Shown here one piece after another: positions 1,996-32,779 of a stretch of 47,947 nucleotides of DNA. Both the position numbers and the translations under genes were made by a program. Positions within the stretch are counted from its first letter, which is position 1; each line of letters begins with the position of its first letter. The notes beneath the pieces are model-generated. The model ran no database searches and was not told where the DNA came from. It saw nothing but the letters and a program-made list of their open reading frames with translations. Source of the stretch: Terriglobia bacterium (GTDB lineage Bacteria; Acidobacteriota; Terriglobia; 20CM-2-55-15); the NCBI GenBank assembly GCA_036496425.1, contig DASXLG010000353.1:1-47947 (forward strand). Reading direction: 5' to 3'.

Positions 1996-2045
1996 GCGCA
2001 CCGAAAACCCCGGTCTTAAAAAAGTATCACAGAGTTTTCGGATCT

Positions 2046-2059
2046 GTACGCAGCGGTAC
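2046..2059. promoter_or_regulatory. candidate operator, GTAC-N6-GTAC, upstream of Crp paralogue 1
   Basis: The 14-mer GTACGCAGCGGTAC lies in the 58-base gap between paralogues 2 and 1, about 50 bases before the start of paralogue 1. Two similar sites precede paralogue 2. Four-base half-sites six bases apart match the geometry of Crp/Fnr operators (GTGA-N6-TCAC). The function is inferred. Confidence 0.5.
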
Positions 2060-2740
2060 TTAGCTATCGAGCTTTAAATGCGCGGCAAAAATCGCTTCGT
2101 AACATTCGCAGCTCGCGTGTTCCAGAGGTTTGCGATCGAGGATGTCGATTACACCTCTGGTGTAACGAATCGCACCCTTTTTCTGGAACGCACTTGCCGT
2201 TACGGACACAGAAGCCCGCCTGCTGCCGAGCACTCGCGCCAGCGCTTCCTGAGTCAGGGGCACGCGGTCGGCAACCGAACGGTCATGAGCCATCAACAGC
2301 CAACGGCAAAACCGTTCTTCGACCGAGTGGAATTTGTTGCAGACAGCCGTTTGGGCAATCTGGATCAGCAGGGCGTTGGTGTAATGCAGCAGAATACGGT
2401 TCAACGTTTCGCACCGTTTGAATTCCTTGCGCAGCAAATCCCGCCTCATGGCATAGGCCCGCCCGGGAAGCTGAACCACGGCGCGGAATGCGGTCGTGTC
2501 CGCCAGAAGTGAAGCAATCCCAACGACCCCCTCATTGCCGATCACACAGACTTCGAGTGTTTCACCATCGGAAGTGCCCGAGAGATATGAGATCGTCGCC
2601 TCTTCCGGAAAATAGACGTCCTTGATTCGCGCTCCGGTCTCATACAGCACCGCTCCCTGCGCGAGTTCGACGGGTTTCAACTGGTTCATGATCACTCGAT
2701 ATTCTTTGTGAGGCAGCGCCTTCAGTATGCGGTTCTTCAT
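2060..2740 (-). CDS. Crp/Fnr-family transcriptional regulator (paralogue 2)
   Basis: A 226-residue protein with an N-terminal cNMP-binding-like barrel (about 15-125; VYFPEEATISYL and VIGNEGVVGIASLL) and a C-terminal helix-turn-helix (about 150-205; LTQEALARVLGSRRASVSVT). It resembles paralogues 1 and 3 along its whole length, so the three arose by duplication. The start is ATG at 2740, and its N-terminus (MKNRILKALP) aligns with an internal Met of paralogue 3. Two GTAC-N6-GTAC palindromes lie 42 and 81 bases upstream. No metal-binding Cys cluster is seen and the effector cannot be named. It most likely regulates transcription as a dimer. Confidence 0.88.
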   Translation of the reverse strand: MKNRILKALPHKEYRVIMNQLKPVELAQGAVLYETGARIKDVYFPEEATISYLSGTSDGETLEVCVIGNEGVVGIASLLADTTAFRAVVQLPGRAYAMRRDLLRKEFKRCETLNRILLHYTNALLIQIAQTAVCNKFHSVEERFCRWLLMAHDRSVADRVPLTQEALARVLGSRRASVSVTASAFQKKGAIRYTRGVIDILDRKPLEHASCECYEAIFAAHLKLDS

Positions 2741-2781
2741 TGTGTGCGAATTGTAAGTACCAGACTAAACACGCTCAGTCG

Positions 2782-2795
2782 GTACGCTGCCGTAC
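2782..2795. promoter_or_regulatory. candidate operator, GTAC-N6-GTAC, proximal site of Crp paralogue 2
   Basis: GTACGCTGCCGTAC, centred about 48 bases upstream of the ATG of paralogue 2, has five-base arms that are exact inverse complements. It shares spacing and arms with the sites at 2046 and 2821. Confidence 0.5.
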
Positions 2796-2820
2796 ATGGC
2801 TGCGAGAATTTCTTGTGCGG

Positions 2821-2834
2821 GTACGGCACCGTAC
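2821..2834. promoter_or_regulatory. candidate operator, GTAC-N6-GTAC, distal site of Crp paralogue 2
   Basis: GTACGGCACCGTAC has six-base perfect arms around a CA centre. Its centre is 39 bases from that of the proximal site, close to four helical turns, so two dimers could bind the same face. Regulation is inferred. Confidence 0.5.
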
Positions 2835-2861
2835 GTGTAAAAACAACGCTGGGACGTGGAA

Positions 2862-2879
2862 CGCGGGCTAAAGCCCGCG
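2862..2879. terminator. GC-rich hairpin downstream of Crp paralogue 3
   Basis: CGCGGGC, TAAA, GCCCGCG forms a seven-pair hairpin 15 bases beyond the stop of paralogue 3. A T-rich run comes only later on the minus strand, so termination would be imperfect. The same GCGGGCTAAAGCCCGC motif is a common dispersed intergenic palindrome in bacteria. Confidence 0.45.
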
Positions 2880-2893
2880 ACTATCGCGTTTTG

Positions 2894-3610
2894 CTATGAA
2901 GATTGACGGCGGTGCACACCGTGGCGGAGAATGCCGTAGCATTCGCAAGCCATGGCCTCCAGTCCGTGCGGATCCAGAATCGTGATTTGACCGCGGTTGA
3001 TCTTGATAAGGCCGGCCCGCTGAAGAAGGCCCGCCGCGACCGTCACGCTTGCCCTTCTGGTGCCGAGCAGCCGCGCGATGACATCATGCGTAAGCACCAG
3101 CACGTCGCTTCGAACGGCATCTCTGGCGACCAGAAGCCAGCGGCAAAAGCGCTCCTGCAGCCTATGGTAGCAGTTGCAGATACTCGACTGCGCAATCTGA
3201 ATCAGGAACGTGTTGGTATATTTCAGCAGCAGGTCGCGGAGGAGCGGGTTACGTCTAAATTCGTCGTAAAGCCGGCGGCCGCGGATTCGAAACGCGTCCC
3301 CTCCCATTTGAACAATCGCCCGATAGGGCATAACACCCCCGAGGATGGCGGGAACACCGACCATTCCTTCATAACCGATCATCCCGATCTCGACCGTCGC
3401 GCCCTCGGAATTCAAGGAAACGATGGAGACAAGAGCGTTCGTCAGGAAATAGACGTGTTCGACGGTCTCATCGGGTTCGTACAGTATCGTACCGGCCGCA
3501 AGCCTTACAGGTTCGAGGGTTTTCATCCAGTCCCGGGACGCGGTAGGCAGCGCAGCGAGGATTTTGTTCATGGATCTTTCGGAACTCTCTTCGTATCTCT
3601 TCGGTTTCAT
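2894..3610 (-). CDS. Crp/Fnr-family transcriptional regulator (paralogue 3)
   Basis: Third member of the tandem family, 238 residues from the ATG at 3610. The cNMP-like barrel (about 30-140) contains VYFLTNALVSIV and MIGYEGMVGVPAIL; the winged helix (about 165-220) contains LTHDVIARLLGTRRASVTVA. The first 13 residues are absent from paralogue 2, whose start aligns with the Met encoded at 3571, so 3571 is an alternative start. Unlike its sisters it has no GTAC-N6-GTAC site in the 200 bases upstream, so it may be controlled differently or sit upstream in the regulatory chain. The ligand and targets are unknown. Confidence 0.87.
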   Translation of the reverse strand: MKPKRYEESSERSMNKILAALPTASRDWMKTLEPVRLAAGTILYEPDETVEHVYFLTNALVSIVSLNSEGATVEIGMIGYEGMVGVPAILGGVMPYRAIVQMGGDAFRIRGRRLYDEFRRNPLLRDLLLKYTNTFLIQIAQSSICNCYHRLQERFCRWLLVARDAVRSDVLVLTHDVIARLLGTRRASVTVAAGLLQRAGLIKINRGQITILDPHGLEAMACECYGILRHGVHRRQSS

Positions 3611-7345: not shown

Positions 7346-8146
7346 ATGGTCTCGCTCGTACGGAAGCTCATCGCAAACCGCAACCTTCTAAAGAACCTGA
7401 TTCTACGGGATCTGAAACAGCGCTACGTGGGTTCGTTCGGTGGATTTCTGTGGTCAGTCATCAATCCTATCGTGACCCTCGTGAGCTACATCCTTGTGTT
7501 CGGCATCATCCTGGGCATGAAGGTCGGTAAGGAGACCGGAACCACCAGTTTTGGAATTTTTCTTTTCTGCGGTTACCTGCCCTGGCTTCTGTTCAGCGAC
7601 ACCGTGGTGAGAAACTGCAGCGTCATCCCGGATAATGCGCCGCTGATAACAAAAACCGTGATCCCGGCCGAAATACTGTCGATCTCGGTAACGATTTCGA
7701 ACCTGGTTCACCACCTGATCGGGCTCTCGATTCTCCTGATCGTGTTAACCCGCTTCACCAGCATTCACCTGTCCGCTGCCTGGACCCTCCTATACATGCT
7801 GATCCTGGTGCTTTTCGCTCAAGGGCTGGGCTGGATCGCCGCCACTCTGCATGTCTTTCTGCGGGACACGATTCAGGCGCTTCAAATCCTGATGATGCTG
7901 TGGCTCTACTTCACGCCGATCTTTTATCCCCCGAGCATGGTTGACCGGGCGCCGAAAACGATTCGGTTTCTGGCGGGGCTGAATCCGATGGGAATCATTG
8001 TCACGGGCTACCGCGATGCACTCCTGAATCAAGCCCAACCGGGCGGAATGCAGGTCGGAGGCGTCATGGCCCTGAGCCTCGTGGTCTTCGTTTTCGGAGC
8101 TTTTCTATTCCGGCAGGCCAAACCGGCGTTCGCGGATGTACTCTAA
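7346..8146 (+). CDS. wzm: ABC-2 type polysaccharide export permease (Wzm/RfbA/TagG-like)
   Basis: A 266-residue inner-membrane protein with about six membrane spans. The N-terminal amphipathic stretch (NLILRDLKQRYVGSFGGFLW) is the hallmark of O-antigen and teichoic-acid export permeases, and FTPIFYPPSMV occurs in the later part as in the family. Such permeases pair with a Wzt-type ATPase to move lipid-linked glycans, but no ATPase gene lies next to it or elsewhere in the window, so the partner must be encoded outside. ATG 7346 follows AAGGA. It is divergent from the kinase operon and ends one base before the stop of the convergent methyltransferase. The substrate is probably a surface glycan. 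Confidence 0.87.
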   Translation: MVSLVRKLIANRNLLKNLILRDLKQRYVGSFGGFLWSVINPIVTLVSYILVFGIILGMKVGKETGTTSFGIFLFCGYLPWLLFSDTVVRNCSVIPDNAPLITKTVIPAEILSISVTISNLVHHLIGLSILLIVLTRFTSIHLSAAWTLLYMLILVLFAQGLGWIAATLHVFLRDTIQALQILMMLWLYFTPIFYPPSMVDRAPKTIRFLAGLNPMGIIVTGYRDALLNQAQPGGMQVGGVMALSLVVFVFGAFLFRQAKPAFADVL

Positions 8147-8968
8147 TCAGGATTCTTTCTGCGCTTCCCACACAAAAGGAGAGGCTAAAGCCCGGAAAAA
8201 CGCGAAGCGTTCGAGAATCCAGGAATCCATTTCATGCGATTTCTTCATTGCCGGAACATGCCGGATACCCAGGCGTTCGAGCACCCGGCTGGTCAGCATG
8301 AATTTTCTGAAGCGGCCGGGTCTTCCGACGGCACGGCTGACCGAACAGATCTGCCTGGTCGTCAGCGGACCTTCGTGCTCGATGACGTGATCCGGTCTGG
8401 GGAACAACCTTCTGATCCTGGCCAGCCAAGCCGGTCCGGCAATCTGTTCAATAAATGACGCGCGTCCGCCGGGCTTTAATATCCGGCGAATCTGCCGCGC
8501 CGCGGCGAGACAATCGACGTGGCGCAATACGCCCGCGCACAGCACACCATCGATGGTGCCATCTGCGACAGGAATTGCAGCCGCGTCTCCATGGACAAGC
8601 AGAACTCGTCCCTCGACTTTATTGGCGTGAACGCGGTCACGGGTTGTCTCGAGGCTTTTGTCGGATACGTCGATCGCGATAACCTTCGCTCCCAGCGCTG
8701 CCAGAATGACAGTATTGAATCCATCGCCGCAGCCACAATCGACGATTGTTTTGCCCTGAACATCGCCCAGAAGATGGAACGCGTACTCGAGCGGAAAGGG
8801 AGTTAGAGAAGAAGGTTCATCGTAACGAAGGATATTCCGGCGAGACATCACCAGATCCGGCGGAAAGCTGCGAATCGCTACCTTATTAAAATGGATCCGC
8901 TCGCGATCGAGCCGCTCCTGGAATGCAGGTTCACTTCCGAGGTCGAGCACATCATCACTCCGGCCCAC
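8147..8968 (-). CDS. class I SAM-dependent methyltransferase
   Basis: A 273-residue Rossmann-fold methyltransferase. Motif I is VDCGCGDGFNT (about residue 76), then AIDVSDKSL (acidic ribose ligand), HGDAAAIPVADG, and RILKPGGRASF (motif III region). The C-terminal third is variable and probably recognises the acceptor. GTG at 8968 is preceded by AGGAGAGG at good spacing. It is the last gene of the minus-strand operon with the carrier protein, adenylation enzyme and flavin monooxygenase, so it probably modifies the acyl or aminoacyl product made there, or its final acceptor. Whether it methylates O, N or C cannot be told. Confidence 0.85.
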   Translation of the reverse strand: MGRSDDVLDLGSEPAFQERLDRERIHFNKVAIRSFPPDLVMSRRNILRYDEPSSLTPFPLEYAFHLLGDVQGKTIVDCGCGDGFNTVILAALGAKVIAIDVSDKSLETTRDRVHANKVEGRVLLVHGDAAAIPVADGTIDGVLCAGVLRHVDCLAAARQIRRILKPGGRASFIEQIAGPAWLARIRRLFPRPDHVIEHEGPLTTRQICSVSRAVGRPGRFRKFMLTSRVLERLGIRHVPAMKKSHEMDSWILERFAFFRALASPFVWEAQKES

Positions 8969-9015
8969 TGGTCCTCTCCTGAGATACGACGGAATTTCAG
9001 CCTACCGTAATGAAC

Positions 9016-9303
9016 TCAAACTGCCGAGTGCAAGCCAAGGGGAACCTTATCGATGGAATCGTCTGATAACTGAATGTAGTCACTGATCGCAGCAATACTG
9101 CGAAAATCGGCCAGGTCCACCTGATCCAGTGCGATCTGGATCGTAAACTCTTCTTCCAGAGCGACCAGCATATCCACAAATGACAGGGAGTCGAGTATCC
9201 CGCTTTGAAACAAATCCTCACCGGCAGCCGGCGCGTCGATCTGCAGCCGGTCATGGAAGATTGTTCTAATTCGTTGTTGAACGCTACCGCGACTGGTTTC
9301 CAT
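9016..9303 (-). CDS. acyl/peptidyl carrier protein
   Basis: A 95-residue four-helix carrier protein. The phosphopantetheine attachment serine lies in GILDSLSFVDML (Ser near residue 39), followed by the acidic recognition helix LVALEEEF and a third-helix segment DFRSIAAISDYI. It resembles DltC-like and stand-alone carriers more than fatty-acid AcpP. The carrier presents a thioester-bound substrate to partner enzymes; its loading enzyme is very likely the adenylation protein directly upstream, separated by two bases. ATG 9303 has an AAGGT ribosome site. No phosphopantetheinyl transferase is present in the window. Confidence 0.88.
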   Translation of the reverse strand: METSRGSVQQRIRTIFHDRLQIDAPAAGEDLFQSGILDSLSFVDMLVALEEEFTIQIALDQVDLADFRSIAAISDYIQLSDDSIDKVPLGLHSAV

Positions 9304-9305
9304 TT

Positions 9306-10904
9306 CTACCTTCTTTCGCCTGCCTGACGCGTGCCGTGCTGAGCCACGGCGTCAGGCGCCTTCATAAACCATTCCTTCAAAAGAGACCGGTCGATTTTCC
9401 CATTCATGTTCTTCGGCAATTGTTCTGAGACCAGCCAGCGCGATGGCAGCATGTGACTGGGCAGCCGCTTCCGCAAAGCCTGTTTGACGGCGGCCGGCGT
9501 CACAGGTGCTGCCGAAAATGGCGCATAAACGCAACAGATCTGAGTATTGTCGAAGCCGTCGCTCTTGAGAGCAACGACGGCTGCTTCCTTCACATCTTCG
9601 AGTTCGTTCAATGCCGCCTCAATTTCACCCAGTTCAATGCGATAACCGCGGTTCTTGATCTGCGAATCCGTCCGCCCGACGAAATAAACCAGGCCGTTGG
9701 CGTCCTTCCTCGCAAGATCCCCCGTGTTATAGATCCGGCTCGATGGATCGCCGCTGAAGGGATTCGGCAAAAACGCTGCTGCTGTTTTCTGCGGATCTTG
9801 CCAGTAACCGGGACTGAGTCCTTTGCCGGCGATATAAAGCGTACCGGTATCGCCCGGCGCGACCGGGTGAAGTTGTTCGTTCAACACGAAGAGTTCTTCG
9901 TTGCCGCACGGCCGGCCGATGGGAATCATCGCATCTGCTTCGGGTAGACCGGGCACCGTGAAATAGCTGCTCGCGATTGTGGCTTCCGTGGGGCCATAAA
10001 GATTCGTGAAAGTCACGTGGGGCAATCGTTGCATCCAATAACGAAGCACCGGCGCCGGGAGAACTTCCCCGCACCATAGCAGCCGTTTTAAAGAAGGAAA
10101 ATCGTTCGGCCGGATCACATCGAACTTTGCCAGATACGTCAAAAGCGAGGGTACCGAAAACCACTGCGTGAGTTCGGCACCGCGAATAAAATCCGCCGTA
10201 TCCTTCGCAGAAACATTCAGTTCAGGGGGAACAAGATGAAGCTGAGCTCCAGCCGCAAACGCTCCGAAGATATCAAAGACCGACAGGTCGAAGTGAAGCG
10301 GCGGGTGTCCGGAAAGCCTGTCATGGGTATCAAGCCCGAAATACGGTTTCGCCCATTCAATGAAACAGATGACGTTGGCGTGCGTTATAACGACACCCTT
10401 CGGCGGACCGGTCGAGCCTGACGTGTACAGGATATAAGCCGGATCCCTGCTCACGTTCCCGGACTCCAGCGGATCGGATGAAAACGGCGCCACGCTGGAT
10501 TGCACGTCCAGCCGTAATACGGGGGTGCTGCGAATCGCGTCCGATGCGCCGGAAAGCTCCGTCCACAAGGGCAGCCCGGCATCGTCAACCAGCAGGAGCC
10601 GGGGGTCGGCCGACTGAAGAATCTTCAGCGCCCGGGGGGATGGGCTGTTCGTATCGACCGGAACGTAAGCGCAGTCTGCTTTCAGGATGCCCAGGATGCC
10701 TGCGATGGTGCGGGGTGTCTTTGGAAGAAGCATCGCCACCCTGTCGCCACGCCGGCAACCGGCAGCGCGGATCGCCCGCGCCAACTGGTTGCTGAGCTTT
10801 TCGATCTCCTCATAACTCAACCGCACTGGACCTAGAGCGACAGCCAGGCTTCCCGGAAGGTTTTGAGCCGCGCGGCCGGAGTACTCTTGCAGGAGTTGCG
10901 TCAT
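9306..10904 (-). CDS. stand-alone amino-acid adenylation enzyme (DltA/NRPS A-domain-like)
   Basis: A 532-residue ANL-superfamily ligase that activates a carboxylate as acyl-AMP and loads it on a carrier thiol. Core motifs in order: LSYEEIEKLSNQLA, YVPVDTNSPS, YILYTSGSTGPPKGV (P-loop), FDLSVFDIF (with the Asp that contacts an amino-acid amine in NRPS A-domains), NLYGPTEAT, YNTGDLARKD, KNRGYRIELGEIE and the catalytic Lys in NMNGKIDR. Presence of that Asp suggests an amino acid substrate, but the identity is not predicted here. Its ATG overlaps the stop of the monooxygenase gene (ATGA), and the carrier protein follows after two bases. Exosortase-linked acyl ligases are a similar alternative class. 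Confidence 0.88.
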   Translation of the reverse strand: MTQLLQEYSGRAAQNLPGSLAVALGPVRLSYEEIEKLSNQLARAIRAAGCRRGDRVAMLLPKTPRTIAGILGILKADCAYVPVDTNSPSPRALKILQSADPRLLLVDDAGLPLWTELSGASDAIRSTPVLRLDVQSSVAPFSSDPLESGNVSRDPAYILYTSGSTGPPKGVVITHANVICFIEWAKPYFGLDTHDRLSGHPPLHFDLSVFDIFGAFAAGAQLHLVPPELNVSAKDTADFIRGAELTQWFSVPSLLTYLAKFDVIRPNDFPSLKRLLWCGEVLPAPVLRYWMQRLPHVTFTNLYGPTEATIASSYFTVPGLPEADAMIPIGRPCGNEELFVLNEQLHPVAPGDTGTLYIAGKGLSPGYWQDPQKTAAAFLPNPFSGDPSSRIYNTGDLARKDANGLVYFVGRTDSQIKNRGYRIELGEIEAALNELEDVKEAAVVALKSDGFDNTQICCVYAPFSAAPVTPAAVKQALRKRLPSHMLPSRWLVSEQLPKNMNGKIDRSLLKEWFMKAPDAVAQHGTRQAGERR

Positions 10905-11905
10905 GATGCGACCCGCTCTCTGGCAAGTTCGAATACCCTGCCGATGCTCTCGAGCTCCTCGGCGTTTGGCGGAATATCCAGGATAAACGTTCCGTATCCC
11001 AGTTCCAGATAGCGCGAGACCTCTTCGGCTACGCGATCGTAGGCGCCCACCAGATAAGGACAGAAGGTTTTGTAGTTTTGAAACGGACCCAGCCAGTAGG
11101 GAGTTTCCGGAGATTCGGCAAGCTTCGACAGTTGTTCATGCCATTTCGAATCCGAAGACTTTATTGCAAGCTCGTGGGTGATCTGTCCTTTCCGCGTTTC
11201 CGGGAACCGCTCCATCGCAACCCGCCAGGCTTCGGCTTCGCTTGCCCGCGCGATGATCCCGATCCGGATACCCGTTTCCGAGCCGCCGGCCGGCGCTTCA
11301 GCTTCTTCCGAAGTAGGCTTCGGATATTTCACTGCCGTGGCACCGATCGCTTTGGCAGCGGACAGTCCGGCCTCCGACGAACCTGAAACCAGAAATCGAG
11401 GTTCTAAATCCGGAGACGGCGGTGGTCCCAACTTGGCGTTGCTGATCGTGTAAAACTCGCCTTCAAAGCTGACCGGTGTGCCGGATGCGCAGAGTTTTTT
11501 GATGATCTGAGCGTACTCGATCAGACGATCATAGCGTCTGTCATGGGGCGTGGTGTCATTGAGGCTGCTCAAGTCGTTCACGAAACCGCCGGCTACCATA
11601 TTGAGATAAATGCGGCGGCGATACAGAAAACCCAGCGAACTGACCATTTTCGCCACGCTATAGGGGTGCAGGTAAATGGGCTGGACGGCAACGAGGGGAG
11701 AAAGCCTCTCCGTATTCTCGATGATGATCTGTGAAACCAACCAGGGATCGGCGATCCGGTTGTCCGTATAGACCAGGATGCCTTCGCACCCATGCGCTTC
11801 GCTCCAGCGGGCAACGTCGATCACTTTTTTCAGATAGGCAGAGTGGCTGTGATCACTGGATTGGGGACATGTCGAAAATATTCTAAGTTCACTATTCGGA
11901 CTCAT
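10901..11905 (-). CDS. LLM-class flavin-dependent monooxygenase (SsuD/luciferase-like)
   Basis: A 334-residue TIM-barrel oxidoreductase of the bacterial luciferase family. Evidence is the N-terminal barrel pattern (SHSAYLKKVIDVARWSEAHG, GILVYTDNRIADPW), the conserved HPYSVAKMVSSLGFLYRRR segment, YLNMVAGGFVNDL, the ERLSPLVAVQP strand, and RFLVSGSSEAGLSAAKAIGA (phosphate site), close to alkanesulfonate and NRPS-associated monooxygenases. It uses reduced FMN (or F420 in some members) to oxidise its substrate. As first gene of an operon with an adenylation enzyme and carrier protein it probably acts on a carrier-bound or released amino acid derivative, for instance by hydroxylation. ATG 11905 follows CGGAG. 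A 290-base divergent spacer without recognisable genes separates it from the carbamoyltransferases. Confidence 0.86.
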   Translation of the reverse strand: MSPNSELRIFSTCPQSSDHSHSAYLKKVIDVARWSEAHGCEGILVYTDNRIADPWLVSQIIIENTERLSPLVAVQPIYLHPYSVAKMVSSLGFLYRRRIYLNMVAGGFVNDLSSLNDTTPHDRRYDRLIEYAQIIKKLCASGTPVSFEGEFYTISNAKLGPPPSPDLEPRFLVSGSSEAGLSAAKAIGATAVKYPKPTSEEAEAPAGGSETGIRIGIIARASEAEAWRVAMERFPETRKGQITHELAIKSSDSKWHEQLSKLAESPETPYWLGPFQNYKTFCPYLVGAYDRVAEEVSRYLELGYGTFILDIPPNAEELESIGRVFELARERVAS

Positions 11906-12195
11906 TCGTCAGCGCTCCGTCTGTTCTCCTGCTGCTTGGCCTAGCAATGCGCGTACCTTAAATCTTTTCCGCAATTCGTTGTGGAGGCGGTCATGGAAGG
12001 TATTCCTGCTACAAAGCCATATGGAGCGGCAATTCCAGAACACGGCAATTCGGGACATCTCAGTGCGCGGATGTTCCACTCCGGTCAGGACAAACCAGGT
12101 GTCAAGTCAAGCCGATACCGCGTCGTGCATAGACGCTCCGAATGGCGCCTCGATTGCCTTCCCCATTCCGTCTCGGAGCGGAGAAGGACGGTTTC

Positions 12196-13959
12196 TTGAA
12201 CATCCTCGGAATCAGCGGCCTGCCACATTCAGCCAACTACAAGATGAGTCATGGAAGTCCCGAGCCCGGCGAACTTCGCATTCGTCAGGGCCTCGATGCG
12301 GCAGCGACCCTGGTCGTCGACGGGCAGATCGTCGCGGCAGCTGCGGAAGAGCGCTTTACAGGCGAAAAGCAGACCGGTTCCTTCCCGTCCGGCGCAATAA
12401 ATTATTGTCTGTTCGAGGGCGGCCTGCACATCGGCCAGATCGATGAAATCGCGCATGGTTTCGAGTTCTCGCCTTATGAACAAATCTCGCGGCTCGATCC
12501 GGTTTCGGCGGAACGTTACGATGCCGTTTACTCGCGGGCCGCGCTTCTCAACGATGTCCAACATCATTTACCCGGATTTCCGGCGCATAAAGTCCATCAT
12601 GTGCCTCACCACCTCGCTCACGCAGCCAGCGCTTATTTCACTTCGGGATGGGACGAATGCCTGGTGGCCGTCGTCGACGGCATGGGAGAAGTGGACAGTG
12701 CGACGATCTATCACGCGCGCGGCGGGAAGCTGAAGAAGCTGCAGTCGATCGCCGCACTACACTCCATTGGAATACTCTATTCCCTGATCACGCTGCATCT
12801 CGGATTCGATTTCAACGGAGACGAGTACAAGATCATGGGGCTCGCTCCATACGGCTGCCCGCAGAAGTTCAGACCCTTCTTCGAAAAAACGGTGGAGTTT
12901 CTGCCGAACGGAGCGATCCGCATTCCGCTCCTTTCAATCAACAGGACCGGTGAAGAACGAGACAACTATCGCGCCTCCCGCCGCTTCCTCGACAAAGAGC
13001 TGGGGCCAAGGCGAAGAGGAGACGAGGACGTCACCGCGCATCATCGCGATATAGCGGCGGCCTTGCAGGAATGCCTGGAAAGAACCATGCAACACATCTG
13101 CGGTTATTTCCAGAAGAAGACCTCGTTGCGGCGCCTGGCGCTTGCCGGCGGCGTCGCCCTCAATTGCACGTCGAATGGAAGCCTTGTGCGGTCGGGCTTA
13201 TTCGACGAAATCTATGTGCAGCCGGCAGCGGGCGACGACGGGACGGCCCTTGGAGCGGCATTACACCGCGCGGCAGTGCATGGTGAGATCCGGAATCACA
13301 GGCTTCCCGTTCCTTTCTTCGGCCCGGCATCATCGAGCACCGAGATTGCGAGCGCTCTTGCTGAGTACCAGGACAGCATCAACGTCACGCAATTCCCCGA
13401 TCTGGCTGCTGTTTCGTCCGAAGCTGCCCGCTGGATTGCCGGCGGCAAGGTCATCGCATGGCACCGGGGACGGATGGAATTCGGTCCGCGCGCTCTCGGA
13501 AACCGCAGCATCCTGGCGGATCCTTCACATCCGGAAATGCGCGATCGCATCAATGCGATGGTAAAAAAGCGCGAGGCATTTCGTCCGTTTGCTCCTGCCG
13601 TTTCTCTCGAACAGGCACACGTCTGGTTCGAAATGCCGGCCGGAACACACCAGCCTTACATGATCACGACGGTCAATGTGCGAGAGGCGCACCGTCAAAC
13701 GCTGCCGGCAATTACGCACGTCAACGGAAGCGCTCGCGTGCAAACGGTTTCTGAAGGCGATAACCCGGACTTCCACATCCTGCTGAAAGAGGTCGGGAAA
13801 ATCACCGGCCGCGAAATGCTCCTCAACACAAGCTTTAATGTCAAAGGGCAGCCGATGGTCAACACTGCCCGCGAAGCAATCGCCACATTTCTCGGCACGG
13901 GAATCCAGGCATTATTTCTGGAAAACCATCTGGTGACGAAACGGAACAATCCCGACTGA
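12196..13959 (+). CDS. O-carbamoyltransferase, NodU/TobZ family (catalytically intact)
   Basis: A 587-residue enzyme that uses carbamoyl phosphate and ATP to form carbamoyl-adenylate and then carbamoylates a hydroxyl group, often on a sugar. The Kae1-like N-terminal part has HHLAHAASAY with the metal ligands His138 and His142, VVDGMGE with Asp161 (the same 19-residue spacing as His118-Asp137 in TobZ), GGVALNC and GDDGTALGAA (Asp347). The C-terminal YrdC-like part has FGPRALGNRSILADP and LLNTSFNVKGQPMV. TTG at 12196 is chosen because GGAGAAGGA lies just upstream and the protein then begins NILGISG as in the family; ATG 12142 adds 18 atypical residues. The second carbamoyltransferase follows after 11 bases. 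Confidence 0.9.
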   Translation: MNILGISGLPHSANYKMSHGSPEPGELRIRQGLDAAATLVVDGQIVAAAAEERFTGEKQTGSFPSGAINYCLFEGGLHIGQIDEIAHGFEFSPYEQISRLDPVSAERYDAVYSRAALLNDVQHHLPGFPAHKVHHVPHHLAHAASAYFTSGWDECLVAVVDGMGEVDSATIYHARGGKLKKLQSIAALHSIGILYSLITLHLGFDFNGDEYKIMGLAPYGCPQKFRPFFEKTVEFLPNGAIRIPLLSINRTGEERDNYRASRRFLDKELGPRRRGDEDVTAHHRDIAAALQECLERTMQHICGYFQKKTSLRRLALAGGVALNCTSNGSLVRSGLFDEIYVQPAAGDDGTALGAALHRAAVHGEIRNHRLPVPFFGPASSSTEIASALAEYQDSINVTQFPDLAAVSSEAARWIAGGKVIAWHRGRMEFGPRALGNRSILADPSHPEMRDRINAMVKKREAFRPFAPAVSLEQAHVWFEMPAGTHQPYMITTVNVREAHRQTLPAITHVNGSARVQTVSEGDNPDFHILLKEVGKITGREMLLNTSFNVKGQPMVNTAREAIATFLGTGIQALFLENHLVTKRNNPD

Positions 13960-13970
13960 ATGGATTCGCA

Positions 13971-15500
13971 ATGACAATCCTCGGAATCAACACGGAGTCT
14001 GACGGCTTTGGCGCCGCAGTCCTTCGCGACGGACGCGTGTTGGCCGCAATCGAGCAATTCAAAATCCGCCAGCACTGGTCTTCGATGGACAAAGCGCCTG
14101 TGCCGAAGGACGCCATCCTGACGGCACTCCAGGCGGCCGGAACCGATTGTTCCGAAGTCGGCGCCATCGCCCTGACCGGCGATGTGAACTCTGCCGAGAA
14201 AATCATTCCGCACATCCGGAAGCTCGGCCTGAATCCCCGCGCAATGATCGAGCCCGTTGATCTTCAGACCGCGCATGTCACAGCCGCGTTCGCGGGTTCG
14301 CCCTTTGACCGCGCCGCAATACTCATCCTGAACTGCGGCCGCGAGCCCGGCAGCCTCTGTCTTGCTGCGGGCGATGGAGCCCGGATCGAGATAGAGAAAA
14401 TTCCGCGGCGTTATTCGTTGCTTGGACCCGTGTACAGCAGTGTTTCCAGTGCATTGGGCTTTCAGCCATGGACTTGCAGCAAGATGGCATGGCTGGGCGC
14501 GACCGGTCAGCCCGAATTCCTGGATGTCTTCCATCACATGATGCCATCAGACCACGCCTATGCGCCTGTGGAAGAACTGGTAAGGGCGGTCGACCTCAAT
14601 CGGCCGCAAGACGCCGCTGCCAGCCTGCAGGCCTGGACCAATGAGATCGTGACGGATCTGGCCGAAGGCCTCTGCCGCCGGCATTCCCTTTCGAACATTT
14701 GTGTTGCCGGACATCTTGCAGAAAACCCATTCCTGATCCGAGAGCTGGAAAAGCATTTCGGTGCGGAGCGCGTGTTTGTTCCACCGGCTCCGGGAAGAGA
14801 AAGTCTCAGCATTGGCGCCGCATGGGTCCGTTCGCGCCGCGAAAGACGTTTTGCACAGAACTTGTGTTTTCCATACCCGGCGCTGGGACCGGAGTTTGCA
14901 GATCCTCAGATCAAAGAGGAAATGGATAACTGCAAACTGGTCTGCAATTTCTTTCCCGGCGTGGATGCGCTCGCCGAAACCGTCTGCCGGACACTGAATT
15001 CCGGCGGGTTGGCCGGCTGGTTTCAAGGCCGCTGTGAATTTGGCCACCGCGCTCTTGGATTCCGCAGCATTCTGGCAAATCCCTTCACACCCTTCATCGA
15101 TGAGAACATCAATCGCTTCCTGAAGCATCGCGAGACGTCTCATCCTTTTGTCATCTCTGTTCCAGAGGAGTCTGCATCGGAATACTTCGACCAACCCGGC
15201 GCCAATGCACGGACAATCGCATCGATGTATCCGGTCCGGATGGATAAAAGCAGCCTGCTTTCAAGGTTTGTGATCCAGGATGAGTGTGTTCGCGTTCACA
15301 CCGTGAGTTCAGCAGACAATCACCCGCTCTGGATGCTGTTGCACAGGATGAAGGGGTTCACCGGTCATCCGCTGCTCATCAATACTTCTTTCAATCTTCC
15401 AAGCGAACCTCTCGTTATGACGCCGCGTGACGCGATACGCAGCTTTTATGCGTCGGGCCTGGACGTACTGGCCATCGGCCGCTTTCTGCTGACGAAGTAG
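13971..15500 (+). CDS. degenerate carbamoyltransferase homologue (NodU/TobZ family)
   Basis: A 509-residue paralogue of the preceding enzyme, about 80 residues shorter. The N-terminal pattern (TILGINTESDGFGAAVLRDG) and the C-terminal motifs FGHRALGFRSILANP and LLINTSFNLPSEPLV are kept. The metal site is not: the first His of HxxxH is Leu98 (only His102 remains), the Asp 19 residues on is Asn121 inside ILNCGRE, and the GDDG motif reads GRES (Arg276-Glu277). GGVALNC is replaced by AGHLAENPF. It should not hydrolyse carbamoyl phosphate itself, though the adenylate or transfer half may work with the intact neighbour. ATG 13971 is 11 bases after that gene's stop, implying co-translation and perhaps a complex. 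Confidence 0.85.
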   Translation: MTILGINTESDGFGAAVLRDGRVLAAIEQFKIRQHWSSMDKAPVPKDAILTALQAAGTDCSEVGAIALTGDVNSAEKIIPHIRKLGLNPRAMIEPVDLQTAHVTAAFAGSPFDRAAILILNCGREPGSLCLAAGDGARIEIEKIPRRYSLLGPVYSSVSSALGFQPWTCSKMAWLGATGQPEFLDVFHHMMPSDHAYAPVEELVRAVDLNRPQDAAASLQAWTNEIVTDLAEGLCRRHSLSNICVAGHLAENPFLIRELEKHFGAERVFVPPAPGRESLSIGAAWVRSRRERRFAQNLCFPYPALGPEFADPQIKEEMDNCKLVCNFFPGVDALAETVCRTLNSGGLAGWFQGRCEFGHRALGFRSILANPFTPFIDENINRFLKHRETSHPFVISVPEESASEYFDQPGANARTIASMYPVRMDKSSLLSRFVIQDECVRVHTVSSADNHPLWMLLHRMKGFTGHPLLINTSFNLPSEPLVMTPRDAIRSFYASGLDVLAIGRFLLTK

Positions 15501-15786: not shown

Positions 15787-18700
15787 ATGAAACTATCTTT
15801 TGCGCATCACAGGAAGTCAGTTCTGGCAGTCATCGTAAGCATCATGCTTGGTGGATTGTGTGCGTCCGTAAACGCGCAAACGGCGCCATCCACGTATTCG
15901 GCATATACGGGAACCGATATTAAGACACCACCGCCGGCACCGGCATTGGGACCGGCGAATTCCGTAATTGCAGACCCGACTTTCGGTTCTCAAATCCTGC
16001 GGGTTACAGACCCGAATACAAACAGCGGCGAATCTTTTATTCCGACCGATGCGGGATCTCACCGGACATGGAATGCCAACTCGACGGCTATAAAACTGAC
16101 AGGCCCTCATGGCGACGGATATTGGCTTGAATTCGATCCGAATAACTTCAAAGTCGGCGACGGCTCGGCTAACCCGAAGATTCACTCGGTCCCTTATGGA
16201 GCGACATGGGAATGGTCTACGGTCGATCCGGACGTCATGTACGTTTTACACGGCAGTCAGATCGCGAAATACAATAAAGCCACCGGCGTTACAACCGACA
16301 TCGCCGGACCATCGACCGGTGAACCGCTTGACTATTTCGCGGTGGTGATCGGACAGGATAACTGGATTTGCGCGGCGGCGGGTTCGGGAAATCAGGATTC
16401 GTACACGAAGATCTTCTGCGTCAATCCAGTGAGCCCTTCGACAAGCAAGTTCATTGACGTCTATAACAAGACCATCAACGGCGTAGCGCAAAGCGATCCG
16501 AATTGGCCGAAGTCGGCCGCCGGACAGGTTCTCGGTATTCACGGCATTTCGGGTGGCACCGGCGCAAACTGGCTGCCGGTGACCTTCCACCAGCAGAGTT
16601 GGGGCGGAAACGGCGACGCCATTTTTGATCTCGCAACAAACACATGGTCGCTGGTCTCCAATGCCGATTATTACTGGTCCGGGCACATTTCAATGGGCAA
16701 CGGGACGTATGCCAACTCCGCCGGCTCGCAGAACGGCATCGATTCACGCGGCATACTCCTGCGAAACCCCGACAACTTGATGAATGCCTCTCAGTATCAC
16801 TTTATCGGGCAGCCGACGGCGCCCTGGAATGGCTGGTGTGATGCCGATCACAATTCGTGGTTGAACTCTGTTACGAATCCCAACGCACCGATTGTTTCAT
16901 CCCGCTACGGCGGTAATACGGGCTGCGCTTACGCCTGGACCAGTGAAATTATCGGCATGGCCGTGGACGGCTCGAACACGGTGTACCGCTTCGCGCACAA
17001 CCACAACCTCGCAAGCGTCTGCTATTACGGTCAGGCCTTCGCGCAGATTTCCAACGACGGGAAATGGATATTGTTCTCCACTCCCTGGGACGGCAAACTG
17101 GGATCCGACACGGCCTTCGGCTGTGGAACCCGAATCGACACCTTCATACTGTCGCTTGTTCCCGGTTCTTCCAGTTCCGGTGGCACCACTGTCGGCACCG
17201 GTACAGGCTCGACGGGTTCGGGCGGCTCGACCGGGACCAGTTCCGGCGGTTCCACAGGCACGGGTACCGGTACCTCGACGGGTTCCACCGGTACGGGTAC
17301 CTCGACAGGAACTTCGACTTCATCGGGCGGGTCAACCGGGTCAACCGGTTCGACTTCGACTGGTTCAGGTTCTTCGACGTCGACAACGGCCTCCACAACA
17401 CGCGTCGAGCAGAACGGTGCAGGCATCGTCTACTCCGGAACCTGGTATCCCAATACCGGAGCTTTCAACAGCGGCAGCAGCGCCGTATTGGCTGAAGACG
17501 CGAGCGCACGCGCAACATTCACTTTCAACGGTACGGGCGTGAACTGGATTGGATACCGGGATCAGTGGTCCGGCATCGCGCAGGTCTATGTCGATGGCAA
17601 GCTGGCGGCGACGATCGACACGTACTCCGCAACTGAACAGGCGCAGCAGGTGATCTACTCCGCCTCCGGCCTGGCTTCAGGAACCCATACGTTCGCTATC
17701 CAGGTCACTGGGACCAAAGGCGCCTCCTCCTCCGCGCCGTGGGTCTGGCTGGATGCTTTCGACGTCACTTCAGGCAGCAGCACGACTTCTGGAACGGGCA
17801 CAACCGGCAGCACTGGTACCGGCACGACGTCGACAGGCACCTCGACAGGCACAGGCACGTCGACGGGTACGTCGACAGGCACGGGCACTTCGACAGGTTC
17901 AACGGGCTCGGGAACGTCAACCTCGACGGGTTCCTCAACGTCTACAACCTCGGGTACGACGGGAACGACAACCACAACGGCCCCGGCAGCATCTCAGTAT
18001 CGCGTCGAGCAATCGAGCGCGGCAGTAAAGTGGACGGGTTCGTGGAGCTTGAACAACGGCAGCTTCAACAGTGGCGGAAGCGCCAAGCTTTCAATGACCG
18101 CCGGAGCGCGAGCGACCTTCACGTTCACTGGTACTTCGGTCAGCTGGATTGCTTATCGTGATCAATGGGCCGGAATCGCCAGGGTCTATATGGATGGATC
18201 CGTGGTCGCCACCGTGGATACATACGCCTCACCGGCGCAAGCCAAAACGGTTATGTACACGGTATCCGGTCTGACTTCCGGCACGCACACGATCGCGATC
18301 GAGGCGGCAGGCACGAAGAACGCCAATTCGGCCGCATCCTGGATCTGGGTCGATGCCTTCGACTACACCGGCGCCGCCTTGACGAGTTCGGCATCAACTG
18401 CGGATTCCGGCAGCGCGACGGTTTCGCTGGCCGGCGGGATGACCATGACCAGCAGCGGCACTACGCCGCTGACGGTCGGGTCGGCTGAGGTTGACGGGAC
18501 CGGGGGGGCAACCCCCGCTGGTCTCGCACTCATCAGCGATACGGAAAACGGTGTCATCGCATCGGAGGCTGGCGTCCCAGCCTCTGCTCCTCTTTTAAGG
18601 GGCCGGATCGATTCAGAGATCTCTTCGTCAGTGAATACCGGCTTCGCCCTCGCCAATCCGAGCGACTCGGCGGCGACAATTTCTTTTTTTTTCACGGATG

Positions 18701-19743
18701 CCAATGGAACAGACTCCGGCTCGGGTAGCCTGACGTTGCCGGCGCACGGGCAACTGGCTCAGTTTCTGAATCAAGCGCCATTCAACGGCGCCTCCACGAG
18801 TTCAACCTTTACGTTTTCGTCGACTGTTCCCGTGTCGGCTATCGCTCTTCGCGAACTGACGAATGAGCGCTCCGAATTCCTGATGACCACTCTCCCGATC
18901 GCAAACCCGGACCTGCCGTCGCCGGCCACCGCTTACTTCCCGCATGTACCGGACGGCGCCGGCTGGACAACGCAGTTCGTTCTCGTCAACCCGACCGACA
19001 GCGCGATCACGGGAACCCTCCTATTTGTCAATCAAGCGGGTCAGGCTGGTCAATCCCTGCCGTATCAGATTGCGGCACGTTCGGCCTGGCGCTACTCCAC
19101 TCCGGATACGGCCTCATCCGTTACAGTCGGATCGGCCGAGGCGATTCCGGATGAATCGAACGTCGCGCCCGTCGGCGTCGCCATCTTTTCGCTTCAACAG
19201 AACGGCATCACCATCTCGACAGCGGGTGTTCCGTCTCTTGAAAGCAGTCCTGCATTCCGGCTATATGCCGAAGCCTCGGCGGATGGAAGCATTCGCACCG
19301 GCATGGGCATCGTGAATGTGACCGAGATACCGACAACCGTTCAATTCGACCTCGTAAACCTGGACGGAACACCGACCGGGTTGACGGGAACGCTCAGTCT
19401 GCCCGCGTTCGGCCAGCAGGCTCTCTTCCTGGACCAGGTGCCGGGCTTCGCATCCTTGCAGAAACCTTTCCAGGGGATTGTTCGTCTCTCCAGCGTGGAC
19501 GGCGTGGATCTCGCAGTGATCGGGCTGCGCGGACGCTTGAACCAGCGCTCCGAGTTCATCATGACCACGACGGCGCCCACAAACGAAAATGCGGCGCCCG
19601 CGCCCCAACTGATGTTTCCGCAGATGGCCAATGGAGGCGGATTCCTGACGCAGTTCGTTCTGTATAGCGGCACGGCCGGTGAACCTGCAACGGGTACTCT
19701 GAACGTCCATGACCAGTCCGGTGGCACAATGAATCCATTCTAA
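15787..19743 (+). CDS. large secreted modular protein with two jelly-roll-like modules and a duplicated C-terminal domain
   Basis: 1318 residues. A signal peptide (hydrophobic VLAVIVSIMLGGLCASVNA, cleavage about residue 31) is followed by a roughly 420-residue domain rich in aromatic and Gly residues with beta-propeller-like character, which I do not recognise. Then come a Gly/Ser/Thr linker, a module at about 536-662, a second linker, a second module at about 736-860 (pattern RVEQ, GTWY, FNSG, RATFTF, W.GYRDQW.GIA.VY.DG, GTHT, VWVDAFD), and two copies of a roughly 210-residue domain (about 897-1108 and 1114-1318; shared pattern ERSEFLMTT, TQFVL). The second copy stops short of the first one's end. 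The modules resemble carbohydrate-binding jelly rolls. The start has a plausible ribosome site (AGAAAGAAGA). A strong hairpin follows. Confidence 0.82.
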   Translation: MKLSFAHHRKSVLAVIVSIMLGGLCASVNAQTAPSTYSAYTGTDIKTPPPAPALGPANSVIADPTFGSQILRVTDPNTNSGESFIPTDAGSHRTWNANSTAIKLTGPHGDGYWLEFDPNNFKVGDGSANPKIHSVPYGATWEWSTVDPDVMYVLHGSQIAKYNKATGVTTDIAGPSTGEPLDYFAVVIGQDNWICAAAGSGNQDSYTKIFCVNPVSPSTSKFIDVYNKTINGVAQSDPNWPKSAAGQVLGIHGISGGTGANWLPVTFHQQSWGGNGDAIFDLATNTWSLVSNADYYWSGHISMGNGTYANSAGSQNGIDSRGILLRNPDNLMNASQYHFIGQPTAPWNGWCDADHNSWLNSVTNPNAPIVSSRYGGNTGCAYAWTSEIIGMAVDGSNTVYRFAHNHNLASVCYYGQAFAQISNDGKWILFSTPWDGKLGSDTAFGCGTRIDTFILSLVPGSSSSGGTTVGTGTGSTGSGGSTGTSSGGSTGTGTGTSTGSTGTGTSTGTSTSSGGSTGSTGSTSTGSGSSTSTTASTTRVEQNGAGIVYSGTWYPNTGAFNSGSSAVLAEDASARATFTFNGTGVNWIGYRDQWSGIAQVYVDGKLAATIDTYSATEQAQQVIYSASGLASGTHTFAIQVTGTKGASSSAPWVWLDAFDVTSGSSTTSGTGTTGSTGTGTTSTGTSTGTGTSTGTSTGTGTSTGSTGSGTSTSTGSSTSTTSGTTGTTTTTAPAASQYRVEQSSAAVKWTGSWSLNNGSFNSGGSAKLSMTAGARATFTFTGTSVSWIAYRDQWAGIARVYMDGSVVATVDTYASPAQAKTVMYTVSGLTSGTHTIAIEAAGTKNANSAASWIWVDAFDYTGAALTSSASTADSGSATVSLAGGMTMTSSGTTPLTVGSAEVDGTGGATPAGLALISDTENGVIASEAGVPASAPLLRGRIDSEISSSVNTGFALANPSDSAATISFFFTDANGTDSGSGSLTLPAHGQLAQFLNQAPFNGASTSSTFTFSSTVPVSAIALRELTNERSEFLMTTLPIANPDLPSPATAYFPHVPDGAGWTTQFVLVNPTDSAITGTLLFVNQAGQAGQSLPYQIAARSAWRYSTPDTASSVTVGSAEAIPDESNVAPVGVAIFSLQQNGITISTAGVPSLESSPAFRLYAEASADGSIRTGMGIVNVTEIPTTVQFDLVNLDGTPTGLTGTLSLPAFGQQALFLDQVPGFASLQKPFQGIVRLSSVDGVDLAVIGLRGRLNQRSEFIMTTTAPTNENAAPAPQLMFPQMANGGGFLTQFVLYSGTAGEPATGTLNVHDQSGGTMNPF
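17161..17394 (+). repeat. Gly/Ser/Thr-coding linker repeat 1
   Basis: Short degenerate direct repeats of the type ACCGGTACCTCGACGGGT encode a low-complexity Gly-Ser-Thr tether between the N-terminal domain and the first module of the secreted protein. Such tracts vary in length by slippage and are often O-glycosylated in other families (inference). Confidence 0.7.
17776..17994 (+). repeat. Gly/Ser/Thr-coding linker repeat 2
   Basis: A second low-complexity tract of repeated ACGTCGACAGGCAC-like units encodes alternating Thr-Gly-Thr-Ser residues between modules 1 and 2. The antisense frames are open and Val/Pro-rich only because of the repeat. Confidence 0.7.
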
Positions 19744-19837: not shown

Positions 19838-20305
19838 ATGTGCAAAGTTTTCGCCCTGTACAAGTGTGGGCACACCCTCCATCGCTGGAAAGTCCCGGTC
19901 CTTCCAAAGCTGATTTACTACTTCGTTCGCTTCTTCTTCACCGCCTCCGTCCCATCTACAGCAGCCATCGGCCGCAACACTACATTCAACAACTACGGAA
20001 TGGGGGTAGTGATCCACCGCCGCGTTGTGATCGGCGAAAACTGCGAGATCTCTCATCAGGTCACGATTGGCGGCCGGGGCGGCTTCTATGAAGTCCCGGT
20101 CATTGGAAACGACGTTTTCATCGGCGCCGGAGCCAAAGTGCTCGGCCCTGTCAAAGTTGGAGACGGCGCCATTATCGGCGCGAATGCCGTCGTTCTGAGT
20201 GACGTGCCGGCGCACTCGGTAGCGGTGGGAATCCCCGCCCGGATCGTCAAACAGAACGTTCAATCGATCGTCGGGCCCGAACCCCGTGCAGTGGTGGCGA
20301 TGTAG
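19838..20305 (+). CDS. serine-acetyltransferase-like hexapeptide-repeat acyltransferase
   Basis: 155 residues. After an N-terminal helical segment of about 45 residues comes a left-handed beta helix of hexapeptide repeats (AAIGRNTTFNNYGMGVVIH, VVIGENCEISHQVTIGG, PVIGNDVFIGAGAKVLGPV, VGDGAIIGANAVVLSDV) ending in the AVGIPARIV cap. The His of EISHQVTIGG matches the CysE-type catalytic region. Full CysE has a longer N-terminal helical domain, which is missing, and the short form is common in polysaccharide loci where it acetylates sugars; that role fits the glycosyltransferases immediately downstream. ATG 19838 follows a G-rich site (CGGGGGC). The stop directly precedes the next gene. Confidence 0.83.
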   Translation: MCKVFALYKCGHTLHRWKVPVLPKLIYYFVRFFFTASVPSTAAIGRNTTFNNYGMGVVIHRRVVIGENCEISHQVTIGGRGGFYEVPVIGNDVFIGAGAKVLGPVKVGDGAIIGANAVVLSDVPAHSVAVGIPARIVKQNVQSIVGPEPRAVVAM

Positions 20306-20311
20306 GTGTTT

Positions 20312-21475
20312 ATGATTGAAGGAAAAGACATCATATGTTTCAGCAACGATTGGGATGGCGATCCGCTCAGCAAGAAACACATCATGCAGCGGCTCGCCAG
20401 GCGAAACCGGATATTATGGGTGAACTCCATCGGGAACCGGAATCCGACCGCTTCCGTCCATGACGTCCGCCGGGTCATCAAGAAACTTCGCGACTTTGCC
20501 CGGGGATCGAAAAACGTCGAGCAAGGGATTCATGTCTTCGCGCCGCTCGCCATTCCCTTTCACGGGAGCGCCGCGGCCAGATGGATCAACCGGAAAGCGC
20601 TGCAATGGAGCATTCAACGGGCATGCCGGAGACTCGGCTTCACCAGACCTATTACATGGTCGTTTGTTCCCGCCTCCGCTGAGGTTGCCGGCTCGCTTGG
20701 CGAAAGCGCGCTGGTGTATCACTGCGTCGATGAAAACACAGGGTTCACCGGCACGGACAAAGATGCGATCCGGTCGCTCGAAGAACAACTGATGGAAAAG
20801 TCGGATTGCGTCTTTGTGTCGTCCGACGTTCTTCTCGGCAGCAAGCGGCGGCACAACCCGAACACGTTTCTGGTAACCCACGGGGTCGACGTTCCCCATT
20901 TCAGAAAGGCGTGCGAAGCCGATACGCCAATCCCGGAAGAAATCCGTTCCCTCCCGAAACCGGTGATTGGTTTCTTTGGATTGATTGCAGACTGGGTCGA
21001 TCTTGAACTCATTCGTTTCCTCGCGCAGTCACGGCCACAATGGACATTTGTACTTATCGGCAAAGTCGTCACGAGCCTCAAAGCGATTGAAGGATTATCG
21101 AACGTCCACCTGCTGGGCCAGAAGCCCTATGCCTCTTTACCCGGTTACGCGAAGGCCTTCGATATCGCGTTGATGCCTTTCGTCATGAATGAACTCACGA
21201 TTGCCGCGAATCCGCTCAAAATCCGGGAGTATCTCGCGGCCGGACTGCCGGTCATATCGAGCGCGATCCCGGAAGCCGAGAAACTCAAAGATGTTCTCAA
21301 GGTGGCACGCTCTCATGACGACTTTCTGACGATTGCCGAAGACATCATCCAATCGGGAAAGACCGGGCCCCAGCTGTCCATCTCGAAACAAATGGAGTGC
21401 GAATCATGGGACGCCAAGGTTGAAGAGTTCAGCCGGATTCTGACGATGCTGGACCGGGGCAGGGCGGCGGCATAG
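20312..21475 (+). CDS. glycosyltransferase, GT-B fold, TuaH-like
   Basis: About 387 residues, cytoplasmic. The N-terminal Rossmann half begins IICFSNDWDGDPLSKKHIMQ, as in TuaH-type and other group 1 transferases; the C-terminal half has PVIGFFGLIADWVDLELI, NVHLLGQKPYASLPGYAKAF, IALMPFVMNELT and NPLKIREYLAAGLPVISS, the acidic/Lys nucleotide-sugar site region of GT4-like enzymes. It would add a sugar to a lipid- or glycan-linked acceptor during surface polysaccharide synthesis. ATG 20312 is six bases beyond the acetyltransferase stop, with TAGGTG upstream; GTG 20306 is an alternative start. It is part of a four-gene run (acetyltransferase, two transferases, small secreted domain protein). Donor and acceptor are unknown. 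Confidence 0.86.
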   Translation: MIEGKDIICFSNDWDGDPLSKKHIMQRLARRNRILWVNSIGNRNPTASVHDVRRVIKKLRDFARGSKNVEQGIHVFAPLAIPFHGSAAARWINRKALQWSIQRACRRLGFTRPITWSFVPASAEVAGSLGESALVYHCVDENTGFTGTDKDAIRSLEEQLMEKSDCVFVSSDVLLGSKRRHNPNTFLVTHGVDVPHFRKACEADTPIPEEIRSLPKPVIGFFGLIADWVDLELIRFLAQSRPQWTFVLIGKVVTSLKAIEGLSNVHLLGQKPYASLPGYAKAFDIALMPFVMNELTIAANPLKIREYLAAGLPVISSAIPEAEKLKDVLKVARSHDDFLTIAEDIIQSGKTGPQLSISKQMECESWDAKVEEFSRILTMLDRGRAAA

Positions 21476-21478
21476 CAA

Positions 21479-32773: not shown

Positions 32774-32779
32774 GAATTC

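Follow-up and report, generated by a model that had tools for sequence, protein, structure and literature searches.

An LLM-A-ACP gene cassette with alternative modifying enzymes is widespread in bacteria and is predicted to build a capped glycyl group on a carrier protein

Two model systems, Dlt and Alm, represent surface aminoacylation by way of a carrier protein, and both add a plain amino acid, D-Ala or Gly. DltABCD carries out the D-alanylation of teichoic acids. The acyltransferase of the Alm system, AlmG, is not known to be a GNAT. In Vibrio cholerae, AlmEFG is responsible for glycinylation of lipid A (PMC11253843, PMC12930378). The locus described here has the AlmE/DltA-type arrangement of a freestanding amino-acid adenylation (A) domain and a separate carrier (ACP), and by analogy it may work like AlmEFG or DltABCD with added chemistry; membership in either system is not claimed. 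As in AlmEFG, the standalone A domain, for which glycine is predicted, would load a separate small carrier, but AlmEFG contains neither a luciferase-like monooxygenase (LLM) nor a capping enzyme, and its acceptor is lipid A. A third system, LgrA of linear gramicidin (F-A-PCP), joins a formyltransferase to both A domain and carrier, as does the formyl version of the cassette, and a PDB comparison with the A domain studied here ranks LgrA first. LgrA is, however, a fused NRPS starter, whereas the cassette consists of freestanding genes, is not predicted to use valine and is linked to glycan clusters.

The window, by which we mean the whole 47,947-nucleotide stretch of Terriglobia DNA that was analysed (contig DASXLG010000353.1), contains the features listed in Table 1. 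The seven open reading frames on which an earlier, sequence-only reading was based (the first seven rows) were all present at the positions given there, and all of them score above curated Pfam cut-offs. The minus-strand genes are tightly packed, with a 4-nt overlap between LLM and the A domain and a 2-nt gap between the A domain and ACP. The carbamoyltransferase gene CT1 is divergent from this LLM-A-ACP core and lies 11 nt from its paralogue CT2. CT1 most likely starts at the TTG at 12196, not at the ATG at 12142: its orthologues begin with MNILGISG, and LNILGISG of CT1 lines up with that sequence. The sequence-only reading had recognised no characterised cluster with these genes, and our search of open-access papers likewise found no described cluster with this combination.

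Table 1. Features of the locus and of the polysaccharide genes around it (positions in the window).
Feature	Position	Strand	Matches and remarks
Wzm-like ABC2_membrane permease	7346-8146	+	PF01061, 49.6 bits
Class I SAM methyltransferase, adjoins carrier gene	8147-8968	-	PF08241
PP-binding carrier protein (ACP), core gene 3	9016-9303	-	PF00550, 42.8 bits; LDSL phosphopantetheine motif
Standalone adenylation (A) domain, AMP-binding enzyme, core gene 2	9306-10904	-	PF00501; TIGR01733
Bac_luciferase, luciferase-like flavin monooxygenase (LLM), core gene 1	10901-11905	-	PF00296, 103.8 bits
NodU/TobZ-type carbamoyltransferase (CT1), cap gene	ORF 12142-13959; likely 12196-13959	+	PF02543 and PF16861
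Degenerate carbamoyltransferase paralogue (CT2)	13971-15500	+	Carbam_trans-type; 27% to CT1
EpsC-like hexapeptide acyltransferase, surrounding polysaccharide locus	19838-20305	+	NF041874, 131 bits (cut-off 150)
Two glycosyltransferases, surrounding polysaccharide locus	20306-22648	+	First: PF13692; second: ORF and match to relatives' glycosyltransferases

The sequence-only reading was to be given up if the genes proved not to be conserved together, but in relatives they are. The LLM-A-ACP core was found in about 90 distinct loci from several phyla, a recurrence that argues against a chance grouping of genes, and the LLM proteins of these relatives are 53-67% identical. Among 299 Terriglobia genomes a minority of 20, including the window's own genome and one distant 33% match, gave an LLM match at E<=1e-30. 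When about 85,000 species were scanned, 80 LLM loci at 56-66% identity were found, part of them on the same contigs as in the Terriglobia search and some of them possibly on mis-binned MAG contigs. LLM loci were present in Acidobacteriota, Gemmatimonadota, Pseudomonadota, Nitrospirota, Actinomycetota, Planctomycetota, Verrucomicrobiota, Myxococcota, Deinococcota, Rokuibacteriota and others; the distribution is scattered and spans at least ten bacterial phyla. Named genomes with the cassette include Nitrospira defluvii, Conexibacter arvalis, Bradyrhizobium, Methylocaldum and Pseudohalioglobus. After removal of duplicates, 77 distinct loci extended at least 2.5 kb downstream of LLM, and in 74 an A domain followed directly within that distance. 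Wide flanks were available for 51 loci, of which 47 also had a carrier gene. Two Gemmatimonadota loci (L057 and L061) and one Terriglobia locus (L068) have LLM but no A domain. The LLM-A-ACP cassette with alternative modifying enzymes is real, widespread and horizontally spread.

These counts bear on a rival explanation, plain surface aminoacylation as in DltABCD or AlmEFG, in which glycine would be moved unmodified while LLM and the capping enzymes served other substrates of the cluster. The A domain and the carrier do resemble AlmE and DltC, yet no other gene accompanies the A domain as constantly as LLM, which usually overlaps it, even in standalone cassettes. We regard plain aminoacylation as very unlikely.

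The A domain of the window scores 392.6 bits against TIGR01733 (cut-off 317.4). An identity as an exosortase A type acyl-CoA ligase was rejected (255.7 bits against a cut-off of 592). Its nine-residue pocket code, DLFFLCLIA, is identical to that of AlmE (DLHLFCLIA) at 7 of 9 positions, and D235, L236 and C301, the residues used as a test for a glycine or D-Ala pocket, are all present. The code is near-invariant in relatives (DL[FH]FLCLIA), where DLFFLCLIA (47) and DLHFLCLIA (16) dominate and the rest are mostly one-residue variants or fragments. The best PDB matches of the specificity segment were PigI, a proline A domain, and 4OXI, which is AlmE with Gly-AMP (PMC11253843). In AlmE, L248 and C316 are thought to limit the pocket to glycine (PMC11253843), and the matching Leu and Cys are both kept in the window. 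Because a near-constant pocket matches that of the glycine-activating AlmE, glycine is the best prediction for the substrate and a well supported one. D-Ala is a weaker alternative. The DltA pocket for D-Ala reads DLMTLCTVA, and its Thr at position 278 is Phe in the cassette A domains, which makes D-Ala less likely. DltABCD does share with the cassette an A domain with the DL..C motif and a carrier, but the A domain of the window reaches only 302.8 bits with the DltA model, below the cut-off of 476, and neither DltB nor DltD was noticed. The nearest NCBIfam models for the carrier are AmcB- and DltC-type, and it falls below the cut-off for both.

The core gene that had been called a flavin monooxygenase is indeed of that type, but it is described more exactly as a luciferase-like (SsuD-type) enzyme, presumably one that uses FMNH2. 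Its AF2 model (pLDDT 84.5) has MsuD/SsuD as the best fold match, and its overall sequence is also shared with these alkanesulfonate monooxygenases. In contrast, it scores only 104 bits against the SsuD family, far under the cut-off of 510 (103.9 bits with TIGR03565, where the cut-off is 518.2), and it thus represents a separate subfamily. The alignment places Tyr, Gly and Pro at the positions of SsuD R297, H228 and Y331, which we take to be active-site or sulfonate-site positions. With a score below the cut-off and the sulfonate-site residues replaced, LLM does not belong among the SsuD alkanesulfonate monooxygenases. Distant homologues (41-47%) on plasmids adjoin A domains, carriers, halogenases and P450s, and distant homologues also lie near acyl-CoA dehydrogenase in secondary-metabolite clusters. 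Since such homologues adjoin carrier systems, action near carrier-bound substrates looks like a trait of the family. Their A-domain codes are mixed, and the plasmid homologues were dropped as a guide to LLM specificity.

CT1 has the N and C Carbam_trans domains with HHxxH and keeps the HHLAHA motif, as in NodU/TobZ enzymes, but it scores 154 bits against the 1000 bits of the curated NodU equivalog and forms a subfamily of its own that is tied to glycine A domains; its substrate is probably carrier-bound. Few genomes encode CT1, and it stands well apart from other NodU proteins. Orthologues at 61-65% identity occur also in Gemmatimonadota and Bradyrhizobium, and the protein was found in 14 of 299 Terriglobia genomes (10 of the 13 others also hold LLM), 4 of 249 Gemmatimonadota genomes and 1 of 249 genomes of the Bradyrhizobium family. 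In three Terriglobia genomes that lack LLM, CT1 (61-62%) directly adjoins an A-PCP didomain with the code DILQLGMIW or DIMQLGMVW, which we take to be the canonical NRPS glycine code, and one of these loci continues with a PKS-NRPS. Plasmids of Burkholderia glumae carry a 47% relative ahead of a PKS, and the code of the loading A domain in that PKS is DIAQVGVVW. CT1 is thus paired with glycine-loading domains across two unrelated A-domain lineages, and the pairing with canonical glycine A domains is evidence for glycine that is independent of the cassette pocket. One Gemmatimonadota locus (L150) retains CT1 and an ACP, but LLM and a glycine A domain are both missing from its vicinity.

A glycyl-carrier offers only an amine, so CT1 acting there would be N-carbamoylating. 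This would be unusual, because known enzymes of the NodU/TobZ family carbamoylate oxygen, at hydroxyls. If CT1 is instead a usual NodU O-carbamoyltransferase, its target would be a hydroxyl, either one introduced by LLM (to give alpha-hydroxyglycyl or N-hydroxyglycyl) or one on a sugar of the polysaccharide, and not the glycyl amine. Apart from the known chemistry, this agrees with the divergent or distant placement of CT1 in several loci and with the occurrence of NodU relatives of lower identity (36-39%) near the cassette in L090 and L121. On the other hand, there is no obvious hydroxyl where CT1 adjoins a glycine A-PCP and no LLM was found, and the replacement of CT1 by formyl, methyl and acetyl partners fits an amine better. 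We consider O-carbamoylation quite possible, at slightly less than an even chance.

CT2 has a short N-terminal half and lacks metal-site residues that CT1 has; relative to CT1, it has other residues in place of the first His of HHLAH and of the Asp in both VVDG and AAGDDG. A counterpart was found only in L063 (33%). The description of the locus as having two carbamoyltransferases therefore stands for family membership but not for activity: CT2 looks inactive and is probably not an ordinary carbamoyltransferase, and because of the motif loss we rejected it as a second active one.

The 47 complete loci included 9 with a formyltransferase, 5 with an MT19 methyltransferase and 19 with CT1 (counted as a cap at >=50% identity). 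No two of these occurred in the same locus, compared to 5.9 such loci expected from shuffling (p about 1e-4), and after thinning to 37 loci (<75% LLM identity) the result was 0 compared to 4.0 expected (p 0.0014); the test was framed after the loci were seen, and the thresholds have a slight effect on it. Below the identity threshold, L090 holds a CT1-like protein at 36% together with MT19. Formyltransferase, MT19 and CT1 are all missing from 14 loci, and 8 of these have a small GNAT (Acetyltransf_3). The small GNAT is accompanied by another cap in 4 of its 12 loci (CT1 in three, MT19 in one), which rules out strict four-way exclusivity; with the small GNAT counted as a fourth cap family, 4 of 47 loci hold two caps compared to 11.2 expected. 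Cap labels change many times on the LLM tree, and for CT1 at least 5 changes fall on well-supported branches, so caps have been swapped repeatedly between lineages. At least four caps are interchangeable, the carbamoyl group among them. An amine is the common natural acceptor of formyl, methyl, acetyl and carbamoyl groups.

The SAM methyltransferase of the window is not of the MT19 cap family, and only one relative, L112, gave a match to it at E<1e-10 (36%). It is almost never present in relatives and was rejected as a core gene, contrary to the sequence-only reading, which had made it part of the pathway. The proposed export through the adjacent Wzm permease fared no better. No Wzm homologue was found near the cassette in relatives at E<1e-10, and the Wzt_C proteins of the genome are encoded on other contigs, with none on the contig of the window; the permease was therefore set aside as a dedicated exporter.

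Many of the loci are XrtA-like polysaccharide clusters with Wzy, a sugar-phosphate transferase, glycosyltransferases, a deacetylase, FemAB and an asnB-type amidotransferase. At least 23 of the 47 complete loci have one or more polysaccharide markers, a lower bound from a limited BLAST search. Relatives such as L089 give matches to families of the XrtA/PEP-CTERM exopolysaccharide cluster (EpsB-type sugar transferase, O-lig_1, ligase_PEP_1, amidotransferase and FemAB), but mostly below curated cut-offs. The cassettes of Bradyrhizobium and several Gemmatimonadota stand alone among unrelated genes, which rules out a polysaccharide context for every locus. With about half of the complete loci showing no marker in this search, a glycan acceptor is not general.

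The standalone cassettes are also what would be expected if the product were a small metabolite, diffusible or stored, in the form of a modified glycine amide with an N-cap. The polysaccharide setting would then reflect shared regulation or chance insertion, and the tandem-GNAT proteins found near many cassettes would free the group by transfer to a small amine. The occurrence of CT1 relatives in PKS/NRPS clusters and of distant LLM homologues in secondary-metabolite clusters points the same way. However, the core turns up in many polysaccharide clusters from different phyla, and neither a thioesterase nor a dedicated exporter was seen to recur with the cassette. We think a small metabolite rather unlikely.

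The pathway that we propose for a surface or exported glycan has four steps. The A domain would activate glycine and load it onto ACP, as predicted from the pocket. LLM would then monooxygenate the glycyl unit on the carrier, with N or C-alpha as the most likely site, a step suggested by gene order and by the distant homologues beside carrier systems. The glycyl nitrogen would next be capped, with a carbamoyl group from CT1 in the genome of the window and with a formyl, methyl or acetyl group (the last from the small GNAT) in relatives. The alternation of caps is seen directly in the loci, and the nitrogen is the atom that we would expect to carry them; were LLM to produce a hydroxyl, this could be the target of CT1 instead. 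Finally, a tandem-GNAT acyltransferase would move the capped group to a sugar amine or hydroxyl. Formation of a carrier-bound glycyl group that is oxidised, capped and then delivered to a surface or exported glycan seems to us about as likely as not. The core of the sequence-only reading is supported: a compact pathway that builds a modified, carrier-bound aminoacyl group, plausibly destined for an exported glycan. The full version, a mobile cassette that decorates surface glycans with N-carbamoyl-, formyl-, methyl- or acetyl-(hydroxy)glycyl groups by swapping its cap, with LLM acting on glycyl-S-ACP and CT1 carbamoylating a carrier-bound amine, is offered more tentatively. If correct, it would add oxidation and interchangeable capping to carrier-based aminoacylation before transfer and would extend such aminoacylation to the polysaccharides of soil and sediment bacteria of many phyla. 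It would also give functions to the LLM subfamily, the CT1 subfamily and the tandem-GNAT family, for which no function assignment was found in curated libraries.

The candidates for the transfer step are the recurrent acyltransferases near the cassettes. Tandem-GNAT proteins accompany 22 of the 47 complete loci. Because they are found with formyl, methyl and carbamoyl partners alike, they were set aside as a cap. The confident model of one of them (pLDDT 88.9) is nearest in fold to N-myristoyltransferase, whose fold serves acyl transfer. No tandem-GNAT gene lies in the window; the genome from which it comes encodes, on another contig, a tandem GNAT fused to a FemAB domain (425.6 bits), which is the likely gene for the last step here.

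The carbamoyltransferases CT1 and CT2 lie in tandem in the window, CT1 with its motif intact and CT2 motif-deficient; CT2 may act as a partner with a regulatory or structural role. A CT1 relative (47%) is found on the Burkholderia glumae plasmid NZ_CP045091.1, where it is followed directly by a PKS; the code in the loading A-PCP module of this PKS, DIAQVGVVW, is glycine-like. The genes upstream are a BioB-like gene, an aminotransferase and an FAD oxidoreductase.

The cassette consists of a luciferase-like monooxygenase (LLM), an adenylation domain and a carrier. At L089, a fusion protein encoded next to the cassette combines an ACP and an ATP-grasp domain, and ATP-grasp genes also accompany the loci L045, L051, L059 and L097, which suggests that the group is lengthened by another amino acid. 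A Pfam-less family that goes with the standalone Bradyrhizobium cassette looks, from its sequence, like a divergent tandem GNAT. Distant LLM homologues on plasmids of Tritonibacter, Rhizobium, Gemmobacter and Streptomyces (L132, L134, L153 and L133) neighbor AMP-binding enzymes, carriers, acyl-CoA dehydrogenase, PPTase and a P450 or a tryptophan halogenase. These appear to be carrier-linked clusters for secondary metabolites that form a related family.

Elsewhere in the window, the genes at 28468-35597 belong to the polysaccharide locus as its second block. The two Ser/Thr/Gly-rich proteins apparently have repeated domains in common, and the first matches CE2_N.

Coordinates of features in the window and at loci of other genomes
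Feature	Location	Strand
Three Crp-like regulator ORFs, tandem	window 1312-3610	minus
CT1-CT2 tandem	window 12142-15500	plus
Large Ser/Thr/Gly-rich protein, first	window 15787-19743	
Two asparagine-synthase-like genes, heparinase-like gene, glycosyltransferase	window 28468-35597	minus
Large Ser/Thr/Gly-rich protein, second	window 42917-46558	
Pfam-less family member	L104:11958-13265	
Pfam-less family member	L130:11779-13197	
Pfam-less family member	L083:7275-8786	
Pfam-less family member	L063:6559-7728	
ACP/ATP-grasp fusion	L089:15753-17678	
B. glumae plasmid locus	L152:10001-19799
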